Source: a virus
Length of the DNA stretch: 30,781 nt
Virus record (IMG/VR): IMGVR_UViG_3300042691_036726
Coordinates: 1 to 30,781 of that record
Reading direction: 5' to 3' (one strand)
Program-made: the position numbers and the translations under genes
The notes under the pieces: generated by a model
Database searches by the model: none
Told to the model about the DNA's origin: nothing
What the model saw: only the letters and a program-made list of their open reading frames with translations
Shown here: positions 5,828 through 30,701 of the stretch, in pieces
Layout of the letters: each line of letters begins with the position of its first letter
Position numbering within the stretch: the stretch's first letter is position 1

Positions 5828-7834
5828 TTATAAAATAATATCCCTGAGAGGCCTTATGATATTACTAGTATTTTCTTGTATCGGATTATATAAATTATAA
5901 GGTATAAGTAGAAAATTAGATGATATGCCTTCTTGTTTTTTGTAATTTAGTATAACACAAGTCTCATCCTTAGACTTTTTAAAGAAAGCAAAAGATCTAC
6001 TATTTACTTTTGATTCATTAACAAATCTATCTAATACTACTCTTAAAGGAGTTCTAACTGTTTCTGGAGTTGTACTATAGTCTATATCCGGATTTATTAC
6101 TTGAGCCACATAATACGCCTCTGGGTTAATAGTGTAGTATGATCCGAATCTTATCATGTCTCCCGGCTCAAATACGAATTTTGATTCTACTCCACTATAA
6201 TAAAATCCTGTAGGATTAGTATCACTTCCTGTGGGCGCAAAAAAAGTACTATTGTTATATAAAATAGAGCCTGTATAATCAAATTCTAGAGTATCATCGC
6301 TTACTCTATAAAACATTTGATAGCTAGCATCTGTCCCTTTTACTACTTGATCAAAATCTAAAGTTAATCCGGAAGCTATATCATCATATACTTCTAAATA
6401 TCCTTTTGCACTATCTCCTCCTAATATCTCAAAGTATATAGACTCAGTCCTCCTAAAAAAGTTCATAACTTCTACACAGTAAACTTTTAGCCTTAGTTTA
6501 TCGTCTTTAGTTAGAGATATTTTTTTATTTACTATTATACAGCTTATTTCTAAAAAAGGATTGGTTCCGGTAGGACTGTGGTCTAAAAATATCGAACTAT
6601 TAATTTCGTCAACTCCTATACCGCCATATGGAGAAGTAGTCGGAATATTAGTACTCCTAATAGTAGATGCTCCGGCATATACCCAAGAAGAAGATCCTAC
6701 AGATTGTTTTTCTAATACAGCCACTACTTTTAGTACAGTAGGCCCAGGATCGGGATTTGAAGCGTATTTTATTTTTATAGGAACATCTACATTTACTATG
6801 TAATCAGACGTTCTAGGGGCCTGAAAATAGCTGTAGCGCTGTCCTCCGGTAGTAACTACATTCAACGAGCCTATACTATCATTAGTAACATAGCCTCCAT
6901 AAGAAGAGCCTGACATATTGGGAGTAAACCAGTCTAACGTATAGAAATTTTTTCCTCCGATAGTATCTGCTGAAAAAGTTAGTCCCAACTCTGTATTGTA
7001 AAATATAGACCCATCAGATCTTTTATATGGGCCTGTAGTATTTAATGGCTGTTGACTAAGATAAGGCCACTGGGATATGTTTAGCTTATTGTAAGAAAAA
7101 GGGATCCCGGGCTGATCTATTCCATCTATTTTAAAATAAGTCCAAGTATCGGTCGTATTAGTAAAATCGGTGTCTGTATTACCGACAGTCTCAAATAAAT
7201 AAGAAGCTGTGCTGACGCACTTTATACCCAATTTAGCAGTAGCAGTTTCTTTAGGAGTATCGTATAAAAAAGTTAGAGGCTCGTTCAACTCTCTAAATAC
7301 TAGAGGGCTATACCTATATCCGGACTCATGAATAATTTTAGGACCATCCAATCCCGTTTGATTAGAGGGTACTGTCTTATTTAATAAAGAAATGCTTGCA
7401 GTATCTCCTTTTTTATATGTATTTTGTATTTCAAACCAATTGTAATTTTTGCTAGACAGCTCTGTTAATGAGCCCGTAGCATCTATCAAATACTTTAAAT
7501 TTACAATTGTCTTATCAAAAAAATTCAAACTTCTGGAATCAGTAGGATTAGCCCATCCAAATTTTACAGTATTAAAATCAATAGCAGCTGTTTTACCGTA
7601 AGATGTGTCTCCCGGAGTATAAAAATTGTATTTTTCGCTAATAGACTTAGCTCCTACATATCTAGGTCTGGTGTAGGCAGGGTCCTGGTACTTGCCATCT
7701 TGTATTTGAACCGGCTCTAGTATTCCTTGATATGGATTTATTTTTTGGAATATAAGAGAATCTACGCTAGACGAAACTGCGTTTATTGTAGTATTATAGT
7801 CTGATCTAATAAACTTTTCGTAATCTATACTCAT
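5828..7834 (-). CDS. Large baseplate/tail structural protein (668 aa)
   Basis: A 668-residue protein rich in Tyr, Ser, Thr, Asn and Gly with no signal peptide, membrane segment or catalytic motif. The ATG overlaps the stop of the 1100-aa gene in an ATGA arrangement, implying translational coupling with that baseplate protein. Segments such as EPGDMIRFGSYYTINPEAYYV and the repeated beta-strand/turn texture fit a virion structural protein. I do not recognise a named family. Its position just after the 1100-aa protein suggests a baseplate-wedge or fibre-attachment role (inference). Confidence 0.8.
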   Translation of the reverse strand: MSIDYEKFIRSDYNTTINAVSSSVDSLIFQKINPYQGILEPVQIQDGKYQDPAYTRPRYVGAKSISEKYNFYTPGDTSYGKTAAIDFNTVKFGWANPTDSRSLNFFDKTIVNLKYLIDATGSLTELSSKNYNWFEIQNTYKKGDTASISLLNKTVPSNQTGLDGPKIIHESGYRYSPLVFRELNEPLTFLYDTPKETATAKLGIKCVSTASYLFETVGNTDTDFTNTTDTWTYFKIDGIDQPGIPFSYNKLNISQWPYLSQQPLNTTGPYKRSDGSIFYNTELGLTFSADTIGGKNFYTLDWFTPNMSGSSYGGYVTNDSIGSLNVVTTGGQRYSYFQAPRTSDYIVNVDVPIKIKYASNPDPGPTVLKVVAVLEKQSVGSSSWVYAGASTIRSTNIPTTSPYGGIGVDEINSSIFLDHSPTGTNPFLEISCIIVNKKISLTKDDKLRLKVYCVEVMNFFRRTESIYFEILGGDSAKGYLEVYDDIASGLTLDFDQVVKGTDASYQMFYRVSDDTLEFDYTGSILYNNSTFFAPTGSDTNPTGFYYSGVESKFVFEPGDMIRFGSYYTINPEAYYVAQVINPDIDYSTTPETVRTPLRVVLDRFVNESKVNSRSFAFFKKSKDETCVILNYKKQEGISSNFLLIPYNLYNPIQENTSNIIRPLRDIIL

Positions 7835-10800
7835 AGGTATGGATTTCTATTTCTTGTTACAAATATTGCGTGTACATCTATCTCAGATCCGGACAGCTCT
7901 CCTGTATAAAAATCTCTAAGATCTCCTACTCCGCTTATATAAATACTATCAGCTTCTATTTTAGATCCAGTAATTTCGGAATTAACTTGATTGAAAGTAG
8001 TATCTCCGGAAGGTTGGACAGATTTAGCTTTTGATCTTTCTAATATAGGAGATTTTATAGTAATACCTGTTGTGATACTATCTCTTGCCGGAATATAGTC
8101 TAGTATCATCTTAAATAGAGCATTATCGTAAAACTGTATGAGTCTTACATAGTCTTTAAGATTATACTTCCTGACATACTTTTCGTAGTACTCAGAATTC
8201 AGTTTTACTAGATCTGGGTACGATATTAATGCTGACTGTCTTGGGTCTCCTATTACTTGATCTAAGTCTATAGTACTTCCGTATTGAGATATTATATCTT
8301 TGTTTATTTCATTTTGAGGAGAAAAAGAAACATCTGTAAAGTGGACATCCTTTGTCCTATAAATAGAAGTTTCATCTTCTAATCTTAAAAAATGAGATAG
8401 TACGCTACCTGTAATTTGATTATTTACTATTCTTACTTTTTGATTTACTGGATTAGAATATACAGAGTTTGGAGAATCTGTTACATAAGTTTCTATGTTT
8501 GTTTTATATGTAGACCCTGTACCATAATTAAAGCTAGCGCTTTGACTAACTGCTACGTTGTAGAACACTCTATAATCCTGATTTGGGTGTATGGACCCTA
8601 CTTCTGTAATTACAGAGTGATTATAAGTCTCTAAATCATTTCCTAAAGCAAATCTGGCTGACAAGTCTTGATACGAGGACCCACTTGTATTTCCTCTTAT
8701 AGACTCTGGGCTTAGTACATGGTAATTAAACGTAGATTGAGATAACGGAGTAGCCCAGTACCTCAATTCTTGGAAATTCCCAGTAAATTTGTACGTAGGT
8801 AAAAAATTACCATCAGAAGCGATATTAGAACCTCCTAAGTATATTGCTTGATTACTATTAGACCAAGATTGATTATAAGAAGAAGAGGCTGCTCCATTCA
8901 CTTGTACAGAAGAAGATGCTTGGTGTCCTATTCTATCTTCTATTTTATTTGCTACAACTAGGGTATATACTTGATTACTTGAAGTAGCAGATCCGCTAGT
9001 ATGGTTCTGCCTTTTTAGCATGACATTCCACCAAAGAGTATCGCCTGTAAAATCAGTATAGTATATCGGCAAAGAAATGCTGGAGCTATACACAACTGTT
9101 CCTCTTAAATAAAACTCTACTTTGCTATAAGGAGATCCTAATGTAGTATCTGGTCTTAAAATAATCCCAAAACTTCTGTCTGTAGAGCCAGTTACTACAG
9201 CCTCTAACAAAGAAGATGTTTTATTATAGAAGTTTTTATCAGGCTTAAACCTAAACTCTATCGTATCCGGTACGTAATCAGCAAATACAGGCACTGCTGT
9301 AGAATATAAAGAAGCCCAGGAAGTTTTTACATAAGAAGATCCTGTATTGTAATAAGCATAAGAAAACCTATCATATGTATATTCTACAGTCTGACTGGTT
9401 TTATCCGCTCCTCCAAATTGAGTCGGAGACAATACTGTGTAAGGTATTCCAAATATAGATATTAAATCGTCTATGCCATCTACAGTACCTTTCTTTTTTA
9501 ATAGGCTAGGTATGTTATGGTATATCCTCTTTAGTACTTCTTTTTGTATGTCTTGCCCTGGGATAATATCAGAAGAAGCACTCACATATGTACTATACCC
9601 GTCTGATAACGGAGAATAGCTTCCGGATACGCTGGATCCTATTAAATACCTATATAAGTCTTCGTTTGCTTTAGAATTATACAGTTTTACGCCCAAAGAT
9701 CGAAGAGCATGGTAAACTAGGTCTTTAGATATGCCTCTATTTAACTTGTTACTAGCTTTGTATAAATCAGTAACAGATTTAATATATACCCATATGCTAT
9801 CAAAATACTCTCCCATCATTTCCACAAATCGGTCAAAAGCTTCATTAGCTTCATCCATTCTTATGTACTCTGGGACAGTATATACTAAATTATTTTGATT
9901 CTCATTGTCGTAATAGGAGGCGCTATATATCTCCCCTCCATAATACCTACTGTCATAATCAACGCTACCTACCCAAGAAACTGCTTCAAGAGTATTACTT
10001 CTATATAAAGTATAGGGTTTGGCACTGCCTGACTTAGGCCAGCTTTTGGAGCCACTCTCATAATACAGAAAATTCTCATATCCGTCAAAATTAGTTATGA
10101 TATCTGTTATTCCGGACTGGATTTTGTACGCACTTTGGCTTGTGCTAAAGGATGCGGTATAATATGGAGTTTGCTTTATTATATTTAAGTCGTCTGTATA
10201 ACTCTCAATTTTTTTAACTTTGTTTATAAAGTTAATCAATCTTCTGGCCGCCGATGAAAAATGAACAAATTCTTCATATTTAGTATAATCAATGTTAATC
10301 TGTATTTTTTGATCATACAATTTATTTACCAACTGCTGATAAGAAAACAACGAATCATTGCTTAAAAGCTGATCTTTATTATAATAGTCAGATAAAGAAT
10401 TAGCTCTGTAATCTACTTCTATATTAAAATTAGCTGACTTTAGTTTAGGAGTTTCTATCTCAAAAACATCTGGAGATACTTCAACTTCATAGCTAACGGC
10501 AGTGCTTAGTTCTTCGACAAACCAAAAAGCAGATTTTTCTGAAAACTCAGAAGGGAGGGGCTTATACAGTTTTACTAGTACAGAAAAAGGAGAAGTATTA
10601 GTATCTAATGCAATATTTATAGCATTTACTAATTTATTATCTCCAAAATTTAGTAAATAGTCTTTATAATATGCAGAAGATTGATACTCTTGTATAAAAT
10701 TTACAACTCCGCTCTGTACTTCTGCATCCGAAACTTGATTTGATATTATCCTAAGTTCTGTCCTGTCCGAAGATATTTCTTTTATAAAGAAAGATTTTCC

Positions 10801-17281: not shown

Positions 17282-18841
17282 TTATTTATCAAAAAATCTA
17301 AGACTTCCTCCTGATTCTTTTAAATTATCCATGGACAAATAAGTTCCGTTTTTATACTCTTTCTTCCCTGGGTCCAATATAACTATTCTGTTTTGAGCAT
17401 TTAGTCCAACTACTACTACGAAATGATTTTTACTAGAAATTCCTTTTCTTTGTAGAATAAAAGGCTTCCCGTTTCTACTTTTTATAGTTTGCAGTATAGC
17501 ATTGTATGACGCACTCTTACCAGCAGGGAGATCTTGTCTACGATAAGAGACTCCATAAGTTTGAGCTGCTTTGTAAGAATTTAAACTACCATCATACTTG
17601 CCTCCTTTAATAACAGAAGTACTATATATGTTTGTCTGAGAGGTATTTATTTTATAAGACTTCAATATCATGGATAGACTTGCTACGTAGCACCATGTCT
17701 TTCCTTCTTGCAGCTCCCATCCTATATTAGTAGTAGCTATAGAGTTTGTATAAACAGCAGATGCTGGTACATCCGAATCGTTTGAAGGAAGATCGTTTTC
17801 ATCGACTGGTGCTGCATCGGAGCATTCTTTCAAGTCTACAAACTCATCTATTTCATTCTGAGTAAAGAACTCTTCTGGGAATTCTCTTTCTTCCAGTTCT
17901 GTGTCGTCTCCAGCTACGACAGACTTAGTATTTTGTTTTTCCGGGTTTGCTGTATTAACTACGGGCTTAGTTTCCGGAATAGTGTCTACTACAGGATCTA
18001 CTACTTTCTCGGGTTCTCCTTTTGGTGCTATAGTCTCTACATAAGCAGTCTTAGGGCTAGGCTGTGTCGGAGCTATGTCTTTGGTTACATCTTCTTTATA
18101 GCTATCAAAATTTAAACTACTTGGTATAAAATTAACATTGTGCCCATTAAGCATATACAGGGAGGACCCGTCTAGATTTATGTCTTCGTAACTCCCTACT
18201 TTATAGTCAGGAAGCTCTCTATACTTATTTACAATAGTAACTACAGGACTTCTGTCTGGCCCGTTAAATGGGCCTTTAAAGTCTTTTATAGAGGACCCCA
18301 TCCTTATGAAGTTCCCAGATCTCCCCTCTAATGTAATGTCACCGGGAGCTTTAATTATTTTAGGGACTTTGCCGTTTTGATTAAAGAGCCCTGTTACTAG
18401 ATTCGCCCCGTTATCAGCCCAATTATTATTAGGAACAGCATTATGCTCTGGATTATTCCACGCTGAAAGCACTTGAGTATAATAGTATTGAGGGTCATAC
18501 GCTGTTTCATTTCCTTGAGCAAAAGGAGATATGGCTACCATAATAACGACTACCTCGTTTATTACGGGATATATATTTAAATTAGCAGTTACTGGAGTAG
18601 CTACTATGACATCTGTTGTGCTATGATTATTGACAAAAGGAGTACATTCTATAGTGCCTATACCCTTCCATCCTCCATATTTATCAAATTTATCCTTATT
18701 GGAATCATCTAATAATACAAAAGATACTCTAGCAAAAAATATAGAACTGTTCCCTCCTCCATAATTCCCTATCCCAAAAAGAGAGTCAGAGTTTCTAAAG
18801 GCAGATCTAATTCCGTTCCTAATCCCTATTTCTGCTGCCAT
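17282..18841 (-). CDS. gp5-like spike/hub protein fused to a C39-like cysteine protease (519 aa)
   Basis: Residues about 30-125 look like the OB-fold of gp5-type hub proteins (IFFARVSFVLLDDSNKDKFD, PVINEVVVIMVAIS). Residues about 165-215 include the spike-type DITLEGRSGNFIRMGSS. An acidic, Pro-rich linker spans about 245-370. Residues 372-519 form a papain-like domain: Q379 and C384 in QEGKTWCYVASLSMILKSY, H473 in KNHFVVVVGLN and D490 in IVILDPG, matching the Gln-Cys-His-Asp layout of C39/papain-like peptidases. In T4 the gp5 spike carries a lysozyme; here a cysteine peptidase replaces it, probably attacking peptidoglycan peptides or envelope protein during entry. It overlaps the 122-aa gene by one base. 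Confidence 0.8.
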   Translation of the reverse strand: MAAEIGIRNGIRSAFRNSDSLFGIGNYGGGNSSIFFARVSFVLLDDSNKDKFDKYGGWKGIGTIECTPFVNNHSTTDVIVATPVTANLNIYPVINEVVVIMVAISPFAQGNETAYDPQYYYTQVLSAWNNPEHNAVPNNNWADNGANLVTGLFNQNGKVPKIIKAPGDITLEGRSGNFIRMGSSIKDFKGPFNGPDRSPVVTIVNKYRELPDYKVGSYEDINLDGSSLYMLNGHNVNFIPSSLNFDSYKEDVTKDIAPTQPSPKTAYVETIAPKGEPEKVVDPVVDTIPETKPVVNTANPEKQNTKSVVAGDDTELEEREFPEEFFTQNEIDEFVDLKECSDAAPVDENDLPSNDSDVPASAVYTNSIATTNIGWELQEGKTWCYVASLSMILKSYKINTSQTNIYSTSVIKGGKYDGSLNSYKAAQTYGVSYRRQDLPAGKSASYNAILQTIKSRNGKPFILQRKGISSKNHFVVVVGLNAQNRIVILDPGKKEYKNGTYLSMDNLKESGGSLRFFDK

Positions 18842-23317: not shown

Positions 23318-24355
23318 ATGAAACTAGGTAGAATATTTTTAGAGGCTCTACTAGAAGCTGGGGGACGAATCGAAATAACAGAAGACTTTTTTGTGAACTT
23401 CAACGAATCTTTCCAAAAGGACCCCGATGCCAAAAAGATTCGAGAAGCCATGAAAAAGTCTTTTAGTCTTAAAGATATAGACGAATACACTGAGGAACTA
23501 AAAAAGCTAATTTCCGAAAAGCTAATCAATGCTGTATTCTTAAAACTCTTCGGAGAATCGTTTAAGGGAGAAATGACATTTCGGACTAAGCCAACCCTAG
23601 ATACAATCCGAGTAACCAGCAGCGATGGAAGGCTAGATGCAATCGTATCCGCTAGGTTTAGCGACTCTGGAAGAGAGCCTAGACCCTTTAAGGTCCTCTC
23701 AGACTATACTACTATAGAGTATCAGTTGGACGAAAACAAAGATGAGAAAACCCCATTATGGGTCCCTAAAGGGAGCCAATCCAAAATCAATCAATACTAC
23801 TCTACCACAAAAAGAGTGGTAGATAGAGACAGCCCCATATACAGCTATACTGATGATGGTAAAGCAAAACGAAAATATTCCAAAACCGGGGAAACCGAAA
23901 TACAAACCAGATCCACAACCAAAGCACCTTCTAGGTCGAATAAGAACCTAATCAGAACAGCTGCTGCTGGTACAGTAGAAAAGATTCAAGGATTTATAAA
24001 CGCATATAACAAGGAAGAGGTAGACGATCCGATCTGGGGAAGACTATTAAATCCTTATATTAAACCTGTAGCCGGAGTAGACCCAGACGATGAAGACTCT
24101 CACAAAGAGAGAGTAGGTCTCCTCTTACAAGCCTTAGTTCAGTGGGCCTTAGACAAAGAATTCTTGTTATACTCCGAAGCAGATCCAAATAAAGAGACTA
24201 TAGAGATAAAAGGAGAGCCTCAAGGAGATAAAGTAAATATTATAGCAACGCAAGGACCGGTAAAGTTAGATACGATGCTAGACATAAAGAACCACAAAGT
24301 AGATCTAGGTCGAACAAAGATCTGGGTCCAAGGAATTCAACTACTAGGAAACTAA
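23318..24355 (+). CDS. Hypothetical protein with T4-internal-protein-like N-terminus (345 aa)
   Basis: The first residues MKLGRIFLEALLEAGG resemble T4 internal-protein capsid-targeting peptides (IPI begins MKTYQEFIAEA), including a possible prohead-protease site F-L-E9 before Ala10. Residues about 10-85 are helical and charged; a beta-rich middle (MTFRTKPTLDTIRVTSSDGR) follows; a basic disordered linker lies near 180-215 (KAKRKYSKTGETEIQTRSTT). The C-terminal third is mixed. No catalytic motif seen. It ends at a strong bidirectional terminator and faces a kinase-like gene with a similar N-terminus, suggesting that both are packaged in the virion (inference). Confidence 0.75.
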   Translation: MKLGRIFLEALLEAGGRIEITEDFFVNFNESFQKDPDAKKIREAMKKSFSLKDIDEYTEELKKLISEKLINAVFLKLFGESFKGEMTFRTKPTLDTIRVTSSDGRLDAIVSARFSDSGREPRPFKVLSDYTTIEYQLDENKDEKTPLWVPKGSQSKINQYYSTTKRVVDRDSPIYSYTDDGKAKRKYSKTGETEIQTRSTTKAPSRSNKNLIRTAAAGTVEKIQGFINAYNKEEVDDPIWGRLLNPYIKPVAGVDPDDEDSHKERVGLLLQALVQWALDKEFLLYSEADPNKETIEIKGEPQGDKVNIIATQGPVKLDTMLDIKNHKVDLGRTKIWVQGIQLLGN

Positions 24356-24388: not shown

Positions 24389-25015
24389 TTAAATGTCGAT
24401 ATACTTAATATTTCCGTCTGAGTCGTACCCTACATTTTTAGAATGTAGATCCGGGCTCAAGGTCCTATCTTTATTAAACCTATCAACATAGCTTTTATCC
24501 ATATCGACACTCTTCTTCATAAACGTTAACCAGTTACTCAGCATAGTAGCTATGTCAGTCTTATTAATTTTACTAAGCACCTTTTTTTCTATATTAGGAT
24601 TCTCTGCCATAGTCTCTATAAAAAACATCACATTATTATCATAGTCAGCTTTAGTATAATCTATGTTTTCTGTATCTAGCTTATATAAAGGCTTAAGCTC
24701 CTTTGTAAGAATATCTATTTCTTTTATAGCTCTATCCGTATCTAGTTTCTTTTGGATCATAATATTTCTGTCAAAATCCATTTTAGATATGTAAGCAAAC
24801 ATATCCGGATTCTTCTTATACACGGTATACTCCCTATTAATAATACCCTGTACGGTAGGGTCTTTTTTCCATTTTTTAATAACGTACTCTCCCTTCTGTA
24901 TAACATCGTTATACTTTACAGCAGGGTACGCTTCTTTATGCGCTCCTTTACCTAGGAGGTCTTTTTTTTTAATCTCCTCTTCTATCGTTTCGAATAATAG
25001 CCTTAGTAGTTTCAT
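24389..25015 (-). CDS. Kinase-like protein with T4-internal-protein-like N-terminus (208 aa)
   Basis: The protein has the order of protein-kinase-like enzymes: Gly loop LGKGAHKEAY (21-30), a Lys in EYVIKKWK (47/48), catalytic loop D189-L-H-S-K-N194 in SPDLHSKNVGYD, and a terminal D207 in KYIDI in the position of the metal-binding DFG aspartate. It stops right after that residue, so no activation segment or C-lobe helices follow; the fold would be minimal, as in aminoglycoside-phosphotransferase-like phage kinases. The N-terminus MKLLRLLFE/TIEEE matches that of the 345-aa protein, including an L-F-E9 prohead-protease-like site. An ejected kinase acting early on host proteins is an attractive inference. 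Its stop overlaps the terminator T-run. Confidence 0.72.
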   Translation of the reverse strand: MKLLRLLFETIEEEIKKKDLLGKGAHKEAYPAVKYNDVIQKGEYVIKKWKKDPTVQGIINREYTVYKKNPDMFAYISKMDFDRNIMIQKKLDTDRAIKEIDILTKELKPLYKLDTENIDYTKADYDNNVMFFIETMAENPNIEKKVLSKINKTDIATMLSNWLTFMKKSVDMDKSYVDRFNKDRTLSPDLHSKNVGYDSDGNIKYIDI

Positions 25016-25049
25016 CTCAATTTTTTAAAAATTTTTTACCGGGGGTATT

Positions 25050-25063
25050 GCATATAAATATGC
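25050..25063 (-). promoter_or_regulatory. GCATATTTATATGC element upstream of the kinase-like gene
   Basis: Minus-strand GCATATTTATATGC, a near-palindromic variant of the ATATTTATATAC element, ends 34 bases before the ATG at 25015, the same distance as for the 218-aa gene. This spacing supports promoter function for this copy. Confidence 0.42.
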
Positions 25064-25095
25064 AAAAATCTATACACCTAAAACAGCCCCTTTAA

Positions 25096-25109
25096 GCCCC
25101 CGGAGGGGC
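25096..25109. other. GC-rich hairpin in the 25.0-25.6 kb gene-free stretch
   Basis: GCCCC-CGGA-GGGGC, a 5-bp stem with tetraloop and no T-run, followed by two copies of GGGCCTGG/GGGGCCTGG. The gene-free stretch 25064-25584 also holds the duplicated RNA module (25325-25511), an inverted-repeat arm (25535-25561) and the first parS-like site. Confidence 0.45.
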
Positions 25110-25324
25110 CTGGTAATACGAATACCTTACCGAACACCGAACAGGGCCTGGAACAGCCTGGGAATCGCTCACACAAGCATTGGGCAACTTATCAAGCGAG
25201 GGGGAGACTTATACTGTATATATGTATATATTAAAGTTTTTCCAAAATTGGGGCGTATATGAAAGGTTACCTGCTAGTTCTCCCCAGATTGCTAAATTCT
25301 TTAGTCCCAAAAATACTAACTTTT

Positions 25325-25403
25325 TTAGCATACATCCGGCATCATTACAAGTGTCAGGTACTACCTATGTTGAGTCGGGGAAATAAAGCCCCCGACACCC
25401 ATA
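25325..25403 (+). ncRNA. Structured RNA module, copy 1
   Basis: Begins TTAGCATACATCCGG, later GGTACTACCTATG, then hairpin GTCGGGG/CCCCGAC (25374-25380 with 25390-25396) whose loop contains AAATAAAG, closed outside by TATG/CATA (25366-25369 with 25400-25403). A second copy lies 107 bases downstream. No T-run follows the hairpin. Direction is assumed from neighbouring genes. Confidence 0.5.
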
Positions 25404-25431
25404 CATCGCGGCTCACAGGTTACTAAAGAAG

Positions 25432-25511
25432 TTAGCATACATCCGGTATCGTTAACGGACAAAGGTACTACCTATGTAGTGTTGAGGGAAATAAAGCCCC
25501 TCATCACATAG
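25432..25511 (+). ncRNA. Structured RNA module, copy 2
   Basis: Repeats TTAGCATACATCCGG and GGTACTACCTATG of copy 1. The hairpin is TGAGGG/CCCTCA (25483-25488 with 25498-25503) extended by GTG/CAC and CTAT/ATAG; the loop again contains AAATAAAG. Stem sequences differ from copy 1 on both sides while pairing and loop are kept, i.e. compensatory change, the best sequence evidence that the structure matters. Confidence 0.55.
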
Positions 25512-25534
25512 TCGGGACGGGTATAGTTCTTTAC

Positions 25535-25561
25535 ATACGGGTATGGGCGTGGCTGATGGAT
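25535..25561 (+). repeat. Left arm of inverted repeat flanking the 194-aa gene
   Basis: Contains ATACGGG, GGGCGTGG and TGATGGA in that order; the reverse complement of 26208-26232 has the same three blocks with one-base indels. 22 positions match. The arms enclose the first parS-like site and the 194-aa gene. Confidence 0.6.
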
Positions 25562-25584
25562 GCCTAATCACATCCTAAACACAA

Positions 25585-25600
25585 TGTTCCACGTGGAACA
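25585..25600. promoter_or_regulatory. parS-like site 1 (perfect palindrome)
   Basis: TGTTCCACGTGGAACA, a perfect 16-bp palindrome equal to the chromosomal parS sequence type bound by ParB (consensus TGTTTCACGTGAAACA, with CC/GG variants in many bacteria). It lies 15 bases before the ATG at 25616, so bound ParB could also affect that gene. Confidence 0.8.
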
Positions 25601-25615
25601 CTAAAAAAATCAGCC

Positions 25616-26200
25616 ATGAACAAAGTTACATTCATCCTCGAAGGAACGAAAGAGACAGCCAAAGGATCAGCGCCTTCCGCTCGGCTCACTTATGTAGACC
25701 TTGATACCAAGGAACGCATGACAGTCGCAATCGGGAACGCAATCAGGTTCATCATGACAGGTTTGCCCCTTTACAAGGCATACGCCCCTGTCCTGACATT
25801 GAAAGTAGGTGACGAAATAATCGGATACGTTACACGTTTTCCGGGAAAAACGACCACTGAAATATTCACGGCTATGAATGCCGAAGTACTCCGGATGGTG
25901 CTCTCATCCCGTTTCACCACTGATGAACTCATCAACCTGAAGAGTTCAACTGATAAAGTAGTGAACGGAATATGCGAAGCCTTCGGACACAAAGGGAAGA
26001 GTATTAACATCGCAGGTGCTGAACAGAACCTCGGTGCGAAATTCCAATCTTTGAAAGATATCCTGAAGTATGCCAAGCATGGAGGCAAACAACTCTATGA
26101 AGAGCAAACCCCGACCGAGGTTATCAACTTCATCAAGGTAGATAAGGAAAACCGCCGTATCGCCTCTGCTGAAAGAAAACTCCTCAAAAGTTCTAATTAA
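25616..26200 (+). CDS. Hypothetical protein (194 aa) downstream of parS-like site 1
   Basis: A 194-residue protein with a beta-rich N-terminal half (NKVTFILEGTKETAKGSAPS, VLTLKVGDEIIGYVTRFPGK) and a helical C-terminal half (FQSLKDILKYAKHGGKQLYE) ending in basic residues (RRIASAERKLLKSSN). No ParB, ParA or helix-turn-helix signature is apparent and no family is recognised. Codon use is more GC-rich than in the left arm. The gene is enclosed by an imperfect inverted repeat and by parS-like sites 1 and 2, an unusual setting for a single small gene. Confidence 0.8.
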   Translation: MNKVTFILEGTKETAKGSAPSARLTYVDLDTKERMTVAIGNAIRFIMTGLPLYKAYAPVLTLKVGDEIIGYVTRFPGKTTTEIFTAMNAEVLRMVLSSRFTTDELINLKSSTDKVVNGICEAFGHKGKSINIAGAEQNLGAKFQSLKDILKYAKHGGKQLYEEQTPTEVINFIKVDKENRRIASAERKLLKSSN

Positions 26201-26207
26201 TTAAATT

Positions 26208-26232
26208 GTCCATCACCACGCCCCGCCCGTAT
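26208..26232 (-). repeat. Right arm of inverted repeat flanking the 194-aa gene
   Basis: GTCCATCACCACGCCCCGCC and the five following bases pair with 25535-25561. In a transcript the two arms would close a stem around the whole gene; in DNA they could mark an inserted cassette. Confidence 0.6.
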
Positions 26233-26240
26233 TATAGATA

Positions 26241-27003
26241 GGTGCAGAAGGCTAACGACCTTACTGTGAGCGATACACACTGCACCACATAACATCTATG
26301 ACCTCATAGGGAATAGAGCCCTATGATGAGATGTTAGCGGAAGGATGTTCCACGTGGAACGTTCTAGATCTTAAACAGAACAGATTGGGAACGGAGTCGA
26401 AGCGCTCCGCCATGTACTCACCCGGACATAAAACCCGGAGATCAGGTACACCCCCATCCAAACGACCACAGAGCGTATGAGGTACGCCAACAGAGGCTCG
26501 TAAGCTTAGTCCCTGAATAGACCCACCGTGGAACAGTGGAGACGTTCATACCCCCAAGAGCGATATGAATAATGGGTTTCTACCCAAAGGCACGTAGAAC
26601 TTTCTGCGGAGAGTAAACTACTCAAAAGGTCTGTGTGAGGTTAGGGAATGTACAGCACATGGCAAGAGAACGTAAAGTTGCAGGCACGAAATAAAGAGAT
26701 ACACGTGTGAGAGCCGTCTGCATCGTCCATGAACCAATCGGAAGCCCACCTGTGTACCCGCAGGCTGTCTGCTTGACCTGTCTCTCCGGAGTATTGGGTC
26801 TTGTATGTTCTGCGGCAAATACAAAACTCCCTTTAGTGTTTGGTAGTTTGGGAGTGTTTAGGTTTACAAGAAAATTACCACCAAGCGAGTCCGAGTGAAT
26901 TAACACTCCAATCGTCCCATTTCTATGGTTCGGTAGCGTCCGCTGTCCTTGGGCAAGTTAATAGATGCAAGATGGTGCAGACATGTCGTGGTGTTTGCAC
27001 ATC
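26241..27003 (+). ncRNA. Hairpin-dense gene-free segment, candidate large structured RNA
   Basis: No credible gene is present. Many local stems occur: a 46-nt three-way junction 26241-26286 closed by GGTGCAG/CTGCACC with two 7-nt-loop arms; a long hairpin 26291-26335 (AACATCT/AGATGTT outside, TCATAGGG/CCCTATGA inside); CGGAG/CTCCG at 26392-26409; TGTAC/GTACA at 26413-26450 around CCGG/CCGG; GCGTA/TACGC at 26473-26487; TTCATA/TATGAA at 26545-26569; TGGGT-TTCT-ACCCA at 26573-26586; GGAGTGTT/AACACTCC at 26851-26909; and GATGGTGCA/TGCACATC with one bulge at 26971-27003. parS-like site 2 interrupts it. The right end runs into a tRNA-like element. Large ornate phage RNAs (GOLLD, ROOL) are often near tRNA genes, so such an RNA is a candidate; limits and strand are approximate. 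Confidence 0.45.
26346..26361. promoter_or_regulatory. parS-like site 2
   Basis: TGTTCCACGTGGAACG, one mismatch at the last base from site 1. Lies between the 26291-26335 hairpin and the rest of the structured segment. Confidence 0.78.
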
Positions 27004-27019
27004 GAGAGTAAACGACTGA

Positions 27020-27082
27020 AGGCGTTGGGAGAGGGTCTCCCACGGAGTAAAATCCGTCCCGGTTCGAGTCCGGGAGCGCCTC
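27020..27082 (+). tRNA. Atypical tRNA-like element (63 nt)
   Basis: A canonical T arm is present: CCCGG-TTCGAGT-CCGGG (27058-27074), followed by AGCGCCT which pairs over 7 bp (one G-U) with AGGCGTT at 27020-27026. Between these are a short GAGA/TCTC arm and an arm ACGGA/TCCGT with loop GTAAAA (only 6 nt). D arm and anticodon loop are too short for an ordinary tRNA, and no CCA is encoded. It may be a degenerate tRNA, an unusual small tRNA, or a tRNA-like domain of the adjacent structured RNA. No anticodon is called. Confidence 0.5.
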
Positions 27083-27085
27083 CGA

Positions 27086-27140
27086 TGTGTCGGAGTAGTC
27101 CGACCGTGCGTATGCTTCCGCGAAAATCGGAGTGCGCATG
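27086..27140 (+). other. Two hairpins after the tRNA-like element
   Basis: GTCGGA-GTAG-TCCGAC lies at about 27088-27103, and GTGCGTAT pairs with GTGCGCAT (with G-U pairs) around TCCG/CGGA at about 27105-27140. They lie between the tRNA-like element and parS-like site 3 and may be part of the same transcript. Confidence 0.45.
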
Positions 27141-27146
27141 AAAAAA

Positions 27147-27162
27147 TGTTCCACGTGGAACG
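27147..27162. promoter_or_regulatory. parS-like site 3
   Basis: TGTTCCACGTGGAACG, same sequence as site 2, 47 bases before the ATG at 27210. Confidence 0.78.
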
Positions 27163-27180
27163 TTGCAATTAAAGTCTTCA

Positions 27181-27212
27181 TTCTTAAACCATCATAAAAC
27201 AAAACAGTTATG
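27181..27212 (+). promoter_or_regulatory. Leader family B, copy 1
   Basis: TTCTTAAACCATCATAAAAC followed 9 bases later by the ATG. Shares TTCTTAA(A)CC(A/T)TCA with four other leaders in the window; 29 bases from first base to ATG. Confidence 0.65.
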
Positions 27213-27629: not shown

Positions 27630-27645
27630 TGTTCCACGTGGAACG
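27630..27645. promoter_or_regulatory. parS-like site 4
   Basis: TGTTCCACGTGGAACG, identical to sites 2 and 3, in the gene-free stretch 27561-27909. Confidence 0.78.
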
Positions 27646-27787: not shown

Positions 27788-27803
27788 TGTTTCACGTGGA
27801 ACA
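27788..27803. promoter_or_regulatory. parS-like site 5 (hybrid half-sites)
   Basis: TGTTTCACGTGGAACA: the left half matches the B. subtilis-type parS half (TGTTTCAC), the right half the CC/GG type (GTGGAACA). Confidence 0.78.
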
Positions 27804-27816
27804 TTGTTATCTTACT

Positions 27817-27844
27817 CCCCTATTACTTATGTGGTAGGGGTTTT
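27817..27844 (+). terminator. Intrinsic terminator
   Basis: CCCCTA (27817-27822) pairs with TAGGGG (27835-27840), followed by TTTT. It ends whatever is transcribed from the 27.56-27.81 kb stretch, supporting the presence of an RNA there, and isolates the next gene. Confidence 0.7.
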
Positions 27845-27880
27845 GTGTGCTATCTATAATGGGTAGCACGTTAGTTTGTA

Positions 27881-27912
27881 TTTCATCCACCATAACAAGG
27901 ATTAAGGCTATG
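27881..27912 (+). promoter_or_regulatory. Leader family A, copy 1
   Basis: Contains CCACCATAACAAGGATTAA followed by four bases and the ATG. The AAGGA part can serve as a Shine-Dalgarno with 8-base spacing. It decides the start at 27910 over an upstream in-frame GTG at 27847. Confidence 0.7.
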
Positions 27913-28092
27913 AGTAAGAAAATCGAAAAGGAACTCGAACTGCTTCAAGAGCAGACTTTATTCCAAGTTAAAGTAGTACGGGAATTTACCCGTATCTATG
28001 GGCGTAAGCCTACTTGGGAGGAGTTCCTCAAGTTCGAAGTTCGCTGCCGTCTACACGGTAGCAAAGCATCTTTCCACCATAACAAGGATTAA
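27910..28092 (+). CDS. Small charged protein (60 aa)
   Basis: ATG chosen at 27910 because it sits at the standard distance from a family A leader. The protein is helical and charged (MSKKIEKELELLQEQTLFQV, then KVVREFTRIYGRKPTWEEFL). The last residues (HHNKD and stop) are encoded by a second copy of the leader sequence. REFxxxxGRKPTWEEF suggests a small helical domain; no named family. Confidence 0.7.
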   Translation: MSKKIEKELELLQEQTLFQVKVVREFTRIYGRKPTWEEFLKFEVRCRLHGSKASFHHNKD

Positions 28093-28096
28093 GATA
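28071..28096 (+). promoter_or_regulatory. Leader family A, copy 2, without ATG at the expected place
   Basis: CCACCATAACAAGGATTAA is identical to copy 1, but four bases later the codon is TTC (28097-28099), not ATG. The leader overlaps the 3' end of the 60-aa gene and supplies its stop codon. Confidence 0.6.
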
Positions 28097-28180
28097 TTCT
28101 GTCTTGATGACAACAAAGAGGTATTGCCTGTGTGCCTCCGAGTTGTCTTAACTAATTACATCACGGGTAAAAACCATTAA
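28088..28180 (+). pseudogene. Open frame after leader copy 2 lacking a normal start codon
   Basis: In the frame set by the leader, codons from 28097 read FCLDDNKEVLPVCLRVVLTN and nine more residues (ending in GKNH) to a stop at 28178-28180. No ATG, GTG or TTG is available at the expected start; ATT (28088) or ATA (28094) would be needed. It is either a decayed small gene or uses a rare start. Low confidence. Confidence 0.3.
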
Positions 28181-28873: not shown

Positions 28874-28889
28874 ATTATTGCATTATTTA

Positions 28890-28920
28890 TTCATCCACCA
28901 TAACAAGAATTAAACCTATG
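28890..28920 (+). promoter_or_regulatory. Leader family A, copy 3
   Basis: CATCCACCATAACAAGAATT then AAACCT and ATG: one base change (GG to GA) from copies 1 and 2, weakening the AAGGA part. Confidence 0.65.
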
Positions 28921-29106
28921 GCACAGCCTGCTATAAAGGTTATCGGGAAAATCGAGATCCCTGAACCTAAAAAGAAAGTTATCTGCACTTGTGATGAGTG
29001 CGGACGTAGGGTCGATGACCGCTTTGGAGACCCAAGGATTACTGTTTACTCCTTAAACAAATCTGTAATAAAACAGGTCTGTGAGGAGTGTGTCAATGAA
29101 GATTAA
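28918..29106 (+). CDS. Small zinc-ribbon protein (62 aa)
   Basis: Two CxxC pairs, C25-x-x-C28 (CTCDECGRR) and C55-x-x-C58 (VCEECVNED), separated by 26 residues, form a classic zinc ribbon/knuckle. The N-terminal 20 residues are Lys/Pro-rich (EIPEPKKK). Such small proteins may bind nucleic acid or host proteins. It is the first gene after the double-terminator block and is preceded by a family A leader. Confidence 0.8.
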   Translation: MAQPAIKVIGKIEIPEPKKKVICTCDECGRRVDDRFGDPRITVYSLNKSVIKQVCEECVNED

Positions 29107-29138
29107 TTTCATCCACTATAACAAGGATTAAGACCATG
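29107..29138 (+). promoter_or_regulatory. Leader family A, copy 4
   Basis: TTTCATCCACTATAACAAGG then ATTAAGACC and ATG; one change (CCA to CTA) from copy 1. It begins only one base after the zinc-ribbon stop. Confidence 0.7.
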
Positions 29139-29441
29139 AACATTCAAGAGTTAAGAAAGACCCTGCCCTCTAAGAGAGAAATGACCTGTGCGGAGCACTA
29201 TGCTGCCGTGACACAGGCAATCTTTGACTCCTTCAAGGCAGACACAAAGGCTAACAGGGAGTATGAGTACCGGATCCTCGAAGATGAGGAGGAGTCAGCC
29301 TTCCTTATTAAGGTAGACTATATCTCCGGCGGTAAAACCTGTGTAACCGGAGCATGGGACTTGGATACCTTGGAGTTAGCCTATACTAAGGCTAGGAGGC
29401 AGTTCCGTGAATGGGAGACTCTGTACCTCCTCGAACATTAA
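29136..29441 (+). CDS. Hypothetical protein (101 aa)
   Basis: N-terminal helix (AEHYAAVTQAIFDSFKADTK), then beta strands (EYEYRILEDEEESAFLIKVD) and a C-terminal helix (LAYTKARRQFREW). The pattern Cys-strand-Asp-Leu-helix-FxxW resembles loosely the end of the 128-aa protein that follows, so they may be distant relatives; this is weak. Preceded by leader A copy 4. Confidence 0.78.
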   Translation: MNIQELRKTLPSKREMTCAEHYAAVTQAIFDSFKADTKANREYEYRILEDEEESAFLIKVDYISGGKTCVTGAWDLDTLELAYTKARRQFREWETLYLLEH

Positions 29442-29442
29442 T

Positions 29443-29470
29443 TTCTTAACCTTCAATAATAAATGTCATG
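29443..29470 (+). promoter_or_regulatory. Leader family B, copy 2
   Basis: TTCTTAACCTTCAATAATAA then ATGTC and ATG. No Shine-Dalgarno. From TTAACC onward it is identical to copy 3 through the ATG. Confidence 0.7.
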
Positions 29471-29854
29471 GAAGTAGTCACTACGCATTATGAATTCAAT
29501 GTCATAGACTTTGTACAAAAGTATATTGACGAAGAAAATGCCAAGTATGGTGCCGAGTACAAGGTTTACGATCCCCCAGTTTGGGAGTTCATTGTAAATA
29601 GAGAATCAAGATCAATGATATCAAAGGATGATATACCATCTATGATATTGATGTACTTCACTGTTCGTGATAATAGTTTTAGCGAAGACGACAAGATATA
29701 CTATATGTTAGTAACAAGCTGTGTAGGTACTATTTTATATGCAGATACTAACCTTACGCTCATAAACACAAACTATACCTTGGCACAGGTAAAAAATGCC
29801 TTTGCCGGATGGTGCAGAAGTGCACTTGACGATCTAGGAGAAGAGTATTTTTAA
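29468..29854 (+). CDS. Hypothetical protein (128 aa)
   Basis: A mixed alpha/beta acidic protein with segments FNVIDFVQKYIDEENAKYG and DKIYYMLVTSCVGTILYAD and a C-terminal helix LAQVKNAFAGWCRSALDDLG. No family recognised. It has no signal peptide. Start fixed by leader B copy 2. Confidence 0.78.
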   Translation: MEVVTTHYEFNVIDFVQKYIDEENAKYGAEYKVYDPPVWEFIVNRESRSMISKDDIPSMILMYFTVRDNSFSEDDKIYYMLVTSCVGTILYADTNLTLINTNYTLAQVKNAFAGWCRSALDDLGEEYF

Positions 29855-29875
29855 CCTTCAATAATAAATGTCATG
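29851..29875 (+). promoter_or_regulatory. Leader family B, copy 3
   Basis: AACCTTCAATAATAAATG followed by TCATG. It starts at the stop codon of the preceding gene, so its presence does not need a long intergenic gap. Confidence 0.7.
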
Positions 29876-30673: not shown

Positions 30674-30701
30674 TTCTTAACCATCAAAATAAAAACACAT
30701 G
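30674..30701 (+). promoter_or_regulatory. Leader family B, copy 5
   Basis: TTCTTAACCATCAAAATAAA then AACAC and ATG; same 25-base length as copy 2. Confidence 0.65.

Follow-up and report, generated by a model that had tools for sequence, protein, structure and literature searches.

Processive antitermination through boxA has been studied in the ribosomal RNA operons of Proteobacteria and in the lambdoid phages. In rRNA antitermination, boxA is the RNA element that is bound by NusB and NusE, and in the rrn leaders of E. coli the order of elements is boxB hairpin, boxA, and boxC (PMC10250234; PMC4807359). The putL and putR sites of phage HK022, two stem-loops in about 70 nt, act through the zinc-binding domain of the β′ subunit without other factors (PMC9378689). 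Here we describe a pair of hairpin modules in the window, a 30,781-nt fragment of a virus record (positions 1 to 30,781 of IMG/VR record IMGVR_UViG_3300042691_036726). At a probability of about 0.5, these modules are part of an rrn-type hairpin-boxA antitermination leader that would drive the expression of a unit rich in untranslated RNA.

The modules sit in a 600-bp gap between a gene on the minus strand (24389-25015) and a gene on the plus strand (25616-26200). On the minus strand, a contractile tail is encoded as far as 21.3 kb, with baseplate wedge and endolysin genes. The nearest named relatives are the Flavobacterium phages immuto (Immutovirus, 160 kb) and the Microcystis phage Mel-JY01; the baseplate protein is 47% identical to that of immuto, and the gene order around the phosphohydrolase and baseplate genes is kept. 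The phage is a distant relative of the Flavobacterium Immutovirus and a virus of Bacteroidota. Closer relatives are the metagenomic contigs G001 (77%), G002 (60-63%), and G003 (41-43%), and the comparison below rests on three phages, with G003 as the distant one. The neighboring genes at 23318-24355 and 24389-25015 have no relatives in IMG/VR. Farther into the tail region, the minus-strand gene at 17282-18841 encodes a 519-aa protein that has a C39-type peptidase domain at its C terminus (Pfam PF13529, PF03412).

The elements of the first part of the leader, with the modules taken from the repeat and hairpin analyses, are as follows.

25215-25274, plus strand: AT-rich block, 71% similar to the promoter-bearing part of the G002 leader (blastn, E = 0.013)
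25325-25403, plus strand: module copy 1
25325-25339, plus strand: block TTAGCATACATCCGG of copy 1
25356-25370, plus strand: block AGGTACTACCTATGT of copy 1
25366-25369 and 25400-25403, plus strand: outer stem of copy 1, TATG with CATA
25374-25396, plus strand: hairpin of copy 1, with loop AAATAAAGC at 25381-25389
25432-25510, plus strand: module copy 2
25432-25446, plus strand: block TTAGCATACATCCGG of copy 2
25463-25477, plus strand: block AGGTACTACCTATGT of copy 2
25473-25476 and 25507-25510, plus strand: outer stem of copy 2, TATG with CATA
25483-25503, plus strand: hairpin of copy 2, with loop AAATAAAGC at 25489-25497, extended by GTG/CAC

The original prediction of two copies with common blocks, 107 bp apart, was confirmed at both positions. 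Each copy is about 80 nt long, and the two have three identical 15-nt blocks in common (TTAGCATACATCCGG, AGGTACTACCTATGT, and GGGAAATAAAGCCCC) with differing stretches between them; this count of three was obtained after one gap had been inserted to put the hairpins of both copies in register. A repeat finder applied to the window returned a direct repeat of 80 nt with 71% identity and a spacing of 107. The sequence TTAGCATACATCCGG is exact in both copies and has no third site in the window, and GGTACTACCTATG is found at 25357-25369 and 25464-25476. Two runs of at least 13 matches were obtained in 0.4% of the shuffles of the match string. A candidate third copy at 26305-26325 was rejected, as it is merely a hairpin, GGGAATAGAGCCC, at 7 bits. 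A duplicated small reading frame was rejected as well: both copies can be read as SIHP[AV]SL...GTTYV, yet the ends of the frame differ, and one synonymous and one non-synonymous change are too few to judge.

The hairpin of copy 1 is GTCGGGG-AAATAAAGC-CCCCGAC and that of copy 2 is TGAGGG-AAATAAAGC-CCCTCA with the GTG/CAC extension. As the original prediction had described, the loop AAATAAAG is common to both hairpins, and the stem arms differ on both strands with pairing retained. Each hairpin is more stable than 98-99% of the shuffles of its own 41-nt stretch. Relative to shuffles, the whole modules fold on the plus strand with z values of -2.4 and -2.5, and more weakly on the minus strand (-0.5 and -1.3). 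However, covariation within this genome did not prove to be the strong evidence for a selected RNA structure that had been claimed. With the hairpins in register, both sides have changed in 2 of 10 stem pairs and 8 pairs are constant; the first G-C of the copy 1 stem faces T-T in copy 2, and the covariation score was equalled by 128 of 500 shuffles in which the letters were re-dealt. The predicted outer TATG/CATA-type stem is present in both copies, but its four pairs never vary. The covariation is real but thin, and it is insufficient by itself to establish an RNA. An intrinsic terminator (a G+C-rich stem with a T-run) was rejected for both hairpins, as had been predicted: neither is followed by a terminator-like T-run and both are absent from the terminator scan. 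Even so, the reading as a selected, non-terminator RNA hairpin is supported, mostly by evidence outside the original prediction: the homologous leader of G002, the similar hairpin loop of G003, and the shared boxA 3′ of the hairpins.

No recognizable sequence homologue of the module was found in the viral contigs, the genome contigs, or the phage records. An exact-pattern scan of the viral contigs with TAGCATACATCCGG returned 30 stretches, all chance matches in which the rest of the motif is absent. The pattern GGTACTACCTATG-gap-AAATAAAGC gave no match in the same contigs, and CATCCGG-gap-GGTACTACC gave chance matches only, among the matches listed; pattern scans of the genome contigs likewise yielded chance matches alone, none of them accompanied by the remaining parts of the motif. 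When a covariance model was made from the pair of copies, the check that had been proposed with the prediction, it retrieved those two alone. Its best other matches (E = 0.03-1.8) are at chance level, with the top one in Mel-JY01. For 25016-27210, no Rfam family was found at the gathering threshold, with chance matches only at E = 0.5-10. A known riboswitch or other Rfam family was rejected, since no covariance-model match was obtained even at E up to 10.

The elements that follow the modules are listed below.

25525-25552, plus strand: block AGTTCTTTACATACGGGTATGGGCGTGG with the boxA-like element AGTTCTTTACATA at 25525-25537 (blastn, E = 9e-5; Bacteroidota rrn boxA)
25548-25618, plus strand: stem of CGTGGCTGAT (25548-25557) and ATCAGCCATG (25609-25618), fold z = -3.2
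25616-26200, plus strand: first gene of the unit, 194 aa, with a homologue in G002
26201-27209, plus strand: 1 kb without a convincing gene, fold z = -2.5, a candidate large untranslated RNA
27811-27848, plus strand: intrinsic terminator CCCCTATTACTTATGTGGTAGGGG-TTTTGTGT (27817-27840 in the scan), with a G002 counterpart in the same order (77%)
25585-25600, 26346-26361, 27147-27162, 27630-27645, and 27788-27803: parS-like palindromes

When the two 600-nt leaders of the window and G002 were compared by blastn, AGTTCTTTGACATACGGGTATCGGGTGG was found to be common to both (E = 9e-5). The boxA block, GTTCTTTGACATACGGGTAT, is the sole well conserved block between them, and AGTTCTTT-ACATACGGGTATGGGCGTGG of the window agrees with AGTTCTTTGACATACGGGTATCGG-GTGG of G002 in 26 of 29 columns. 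The shared block, AGTTCTTT(G)ACATACGGGTAT, is the boxA of Bacteroidota ribosomal RNA. A search for GTTCTTTGACATA in 11 genomes, mostly of Bacteroidota, gave five matches; two of these lie between tRNA-Ala and 23S rRNA and come from two Bacteroidota genomes, whose 16S leaders contain the close variants GTTCTTTAACATATTG and GTTCTTTGAAATATTG at ~120-160 nt before 16S. In all four rrn leaders, a hairpin is found at most ~25 nt upstream of boxA. The pattern GTTCTTT[AG]?ACATA occurs once in the window, inside this leader, and in 4.4 Mb of compared sequence its occurrences outside rrn loci are confined to G002 and G003, in a count that leaves out the rrn loci and the loci retrieved with the pattern itself. 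The window version, GTTCTTTACATA, is one base short and is without one purine of the rrn consensus (GTTCTTT-ACATA); the exact GTTCTTTGACATA is found in G002 and G003, from which the window differs by one deletion. The boxA begins ~22 nt after the hairpin core in both the window and G002, and a hairpin shortly 5′ of boxA recurs in window copy 2, G002 copy B, G003 unit 1, and the four rrn leaders. The predicted duplicated module is real, but it is not a free-standing RNA: it is part of a leader, and the boxA at 25525-25537, the most informative element of this leader, lies just beyond the interval originally reported. The leader element is real and selected, and the adjacent rrn-style boxA explains it better than the reported covariation.

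The G002 contig was retrieved via a gene of the tail region and carries a homologue of the gene that comes right after the modules (7808-7242, minus strand; tblastn E = 5e-22; about 35-36% identity over the aligned proteins). Its layout matches that of the window: a leader of 400-500 nt comes first, then the gene, a gene-free 1.6 kb, a parS-like palindrome, and a terminator similar to that of the window. As in the window, the leader contains a tandem repeat (84 nt, 73%, spacing 119, E = 3e-10), which has no sequence in common with the window repeats beyond the boxA block and a resemblance in the 3′ arm of the hairpin (UCACAUA). Copy B of this repeat forms an 8-bp hairpin, GUAUGUGA-AC-GG-CAACAAA-CC-AA-UCACAUAC, the energy of which was reached by 0 of 1000 shuffles; the hairpin of copy A is weak and not significant (769 of 1000). 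In the window and G002 alike, UCACAUA is the end of the second-copy hairpin, and the G002 boxA lies 19 nt after the UCACAUAC arm. The repeats, the hairpins, the boxA block shared with a relative, its identity with the rrn boxA of Bacteroidota, the boxA before tRNA arrays in another relative, and the downstream non-coding sequence are matters of observation.

A canonical Bacteroidota promoter, TTTG-N20-TATATTTG, is found at 8194 in the G002 leader, upstream of both repeats. The AT-rich block at 25215-25274 of the window has no TTTG box, and a promoter-pattern scan of the window returned no canonical promoter upstream; from its similarity to the promoter-bearing part of G002, this block is likely the start region of the transcript. 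The modules themselves could instead be tandem promoters, like rrn P1/P2, with the 15-nt blocks serving as -35-like and -7-like DNA for a host sigma or a phage factor, an explanation that we consider possible but rather unlikely. Transcripts would then start near the hairpin and carry a 5′-terminal RNA hairpin, with boxA still following. Two conserved blocks with a 16-nt variable spacer are promoter-like; block 2 includes TACCTATG, which differs at one position from the Bacteroidota -7 box TAnnTTTG, and in the G002 repeats TATCTTTG and TATCTTAG occupy the corresponding position ahead of the hairpin. The hairpin stem starts 0-6 nt past this box in four of four modules, and TTTG-N20-TAnnTTT promoters occur in the related phages (G002 at 8194; G003 at 2548, 3564, and 4155). 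However, the window copies have no TTTG -33 box at the right distance, with poor matches in a relaxed scan, and the outer TATG/CATA stem would be left without a function. In addition, the canonical promoter of G002 would transcribe both repeats from upstream, and the window is similar there. The two 15-nt blocks upstream of each hairpin have no counterpart in any known boxA leader, and an rrn leader does not account for them; they could be promoter DNA and not RNA. The hairpin and boxA would be transcribed under either explanation.

In G003, boxA precedes tRNA genes. An exact boxA is found at 1109, and an array of five tRNAs (1135-1530) begins within 12 nt; AGTTCTTTGAAAC at 2584 is followed by an array of four tRNAs. 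Between the promoter and boxA of unit 1 there is a 7-bp hairpin with the loop GAGAUAAAG, a near match to GAAAUAAAG in both window copies. The nine-base loop motif has a background of ~2.7 per Mb with a stem of at least 6 pairs and ~0.7 per Mb with a stem of at least 7 pairs, and its presence within 70 nt of a boxA is therefore not expected by chance. Units 2 and 3 have no clear hairpin upstream of boxA. The several units of G003 (L040; 1049-1530, 2548-2922, 3564-3860, and 4155), in which boxA precedes tRNA arrays, have near-identical promoters (GATTTGGTACTTT...TATCTT or TATATTT). Another boxA-like element, the third, lies at ~3760 between an upstream tRNA-like element and a downstream non-coding stretch.

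Because the window carries the same boxA as the host rRNA genes, after twin hairpins, the virus probably borrows the rRNA antitermination machinery of its host for its own untranslated RNAs. As the leader RNA emerges, boxA would bind the host NusB and NusE (S10), and RNA polymerase would become resistant to Rho and to pausing, so that it could cross the ~1 kb of untranslated structured RNA at 26201-27209 and reach the terminator (27.82 kb). From the position of boxB, the AAAUAAAG hairpins would help to build or position the complex and would perhaps bind a phage or host protein. Transcription, Nus binding, antitermination, and the role of the hairpins are what we infer from the sequence comparisons. 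In common with the Bacteroidota rRNA leader, the locus has the boxA core GTTCTTT(R)ACATA with a hairpin shortly 5′ of it and would stand at the start of a unit with a long candidate untranslated RNA, and the G003 boxA lies directly before tRNAs. Unlike that leader, it is borne by a phage, its hairpin is doubled in 107-nt repeats with two extra conserved 15-nt blocks, the phage boxA continues with ACGGGTAT and the rrn boxA with ATTGG, and the window boxA is one base short. It also counts against an rrn-type leader that a protein gene of 194 codons, not an RNA gene, comes first after it; the non-coding 1 kb comes next.

The locus also resembles the nut site of lambda (boxA-boxB, with the N protein) in having boxA and a hairpin in a phage leader immediately before the first gene. 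However, the window hairpins lie 5′ of boxA, as in rrn, and the lambda-type order of boxA followed by the boxB hairpin was rejected on this basis. The stem 3′ of boxA (25548-25618) is long and open, and the window loop is AAAUAAAGC in place of the GNRA-type pentaloop of lambda. No N-like protein was recognized; the product of 25616-26200 is without recognizable homology, and its structure model, with a pLDDT of 44, is too poor for use. Antitermination could also be phage-specific, with the duplicated AUAAAG-loop hairpin binding a phage protein next to a copied host boxA in the service of a new family of large untranslated phage RNAs. We regard this as unlikely; the phage protein would perhaps be the product of the directly downstream gene, by analogy with lambda N. 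It is highly improbable that the modules are a put-like RNA, which would act by direct contact with RNA polymerase and need no Nus factors for antitermination. Two similar hairpins in a phage leader, near the start of the unit, recall putL and putR, but put is without boxA, the only block conserved between the phages here, and the single hairpin in each 107-nt direct repeat is unlike the two-stem fold of put, by description one compact 70-nt element.

The gene at 25616-26200 has no match in Pfam, PHROG, or PDB, and no homologue was found in IMG/VR (by patterns), the phage records, or 395 Bacteroidota genomes; the one homologue was obtained by tblastn on G002. Its whole ATG is taken in by the 10-bp stem 25548-25557/25609-25618. 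The modules could accordingly belong to a cis-regulatory RNA, either riboswitch-like or the site of an autoregulatory protein, that controls translation of this gene through the start-codon stem. Tandem RNA elements before genes are known from riboswitches, the stem folds with the z of -3.2 given above, and the same UAUG could pair with either GCAUA of block 1 or the 3′ CAUA, in competition. Nevertheless, we find this explanation doubtful: no Rfam family was matched at E up to 10, and the pairing that block 1 forms in copy 2 (GUUAGCAUAC/GUAUCGUUAAC) is disrupted in copy 1 at two positions. Moreover, G002 has a GUGGU../..ACCAC stem at the same place with the start codon free, outside the stem, and translational control is for this reason a secondary possibility.

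After the homologous gene, G002 (L035) has ~1.6 kb of non-coding sequence at the same place (7241-5607, minus strand). Both non-coding stretches have strong predicted folding and no Rfam match. They have short islands in common, partly in the same order (GCTTAGTCCCTG, GTATTGGGT), and they share 17 9-mers versus 8.3 expected (3 of 200 shuffles). From these comparisons, the stretch after the gene is a candidate for a new large phage RNA. This downstream stretch resembles the GOLLD and ROOL large ornate RNAs in being ~1 kb of phage sequence that is untranslated, folds strongly, and bears a tRNA-like element; unlike them, it has no Rfam match at E up to 10 and is not a member on this evidence. The tRNA-like cloverleaf at 27020-27081 (AGGCGUU...CCCGGUUCGAGUCCGGG AGCGCCU; z = -2.8) is without a variable loop and is recognized by neither ARAGORN nor Rfam. 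Over 36 nt it matches the end of the human-gut phage scaffold MT835528.1 at 92% identity; in G002, a hairpin resembling a T arm immediately follows the gene (about 7215-7175). A very stable hairpin at 26290-26335 (z = -4.2), where the non-coding stretch begins, has the loop AATAGAG and the stem CATAGGG/CCCTATG, extended by AACATCT/AGATGTT. It recalls the module hairpins; the other blocks are absent.

Five copies of a palindrome with the parS consensus, TGTT(C/T)CACGTGGAAC(A/G), are found within 2.2 kb, and a single copy is found in G002 (6080-6095), just before the terminator. Neither this record nor any of five related ones yielded a ParB gene; a host ParB may therefore be recruited, or the palindromes may act as RNA hairpins. 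With five such palindromes between 25.58 and 27.80 kb, and with the cumulative GC skew at its lowest at about 26.2-26.5 kb, the repeats in this divergent intergenic region could be a DNA element for replication or partition. This is very unlikely, as the skew tracks gene direction and there are merely two repeats, the number of parS-like sites is not conserved, a ParB gene was found in none of the six records, and stems with a conserved loop and a boxA indicate RNA.

Farther downstream, two repeat families lie directly before the start codons of small genes. The first, TTCATCCACCATAACAAGGATTAAG..ATG, is found at 27880-27913, 28067-28100, 28888-28921, and 29106-29139, and the second, TTCTTAACCTTCAATAATAAATGTCATG, at 29443-29470, 29848-29875, and 30674-30701. 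Both families probably serve early genes as common ribosome-binding or start elements.

If the hairpin-boxA leader is what we propose, boxA is used by Bacteroidota phages in the form found in the rRNA genes of their hosts, before phage tRNAs and before a long untranslated RNA. This would provide a testable entry into antitermination in a phylum where it has been little studied (no dedicated paper was found in a literature search), and it points to a new large phage RNA that is worth isolating.
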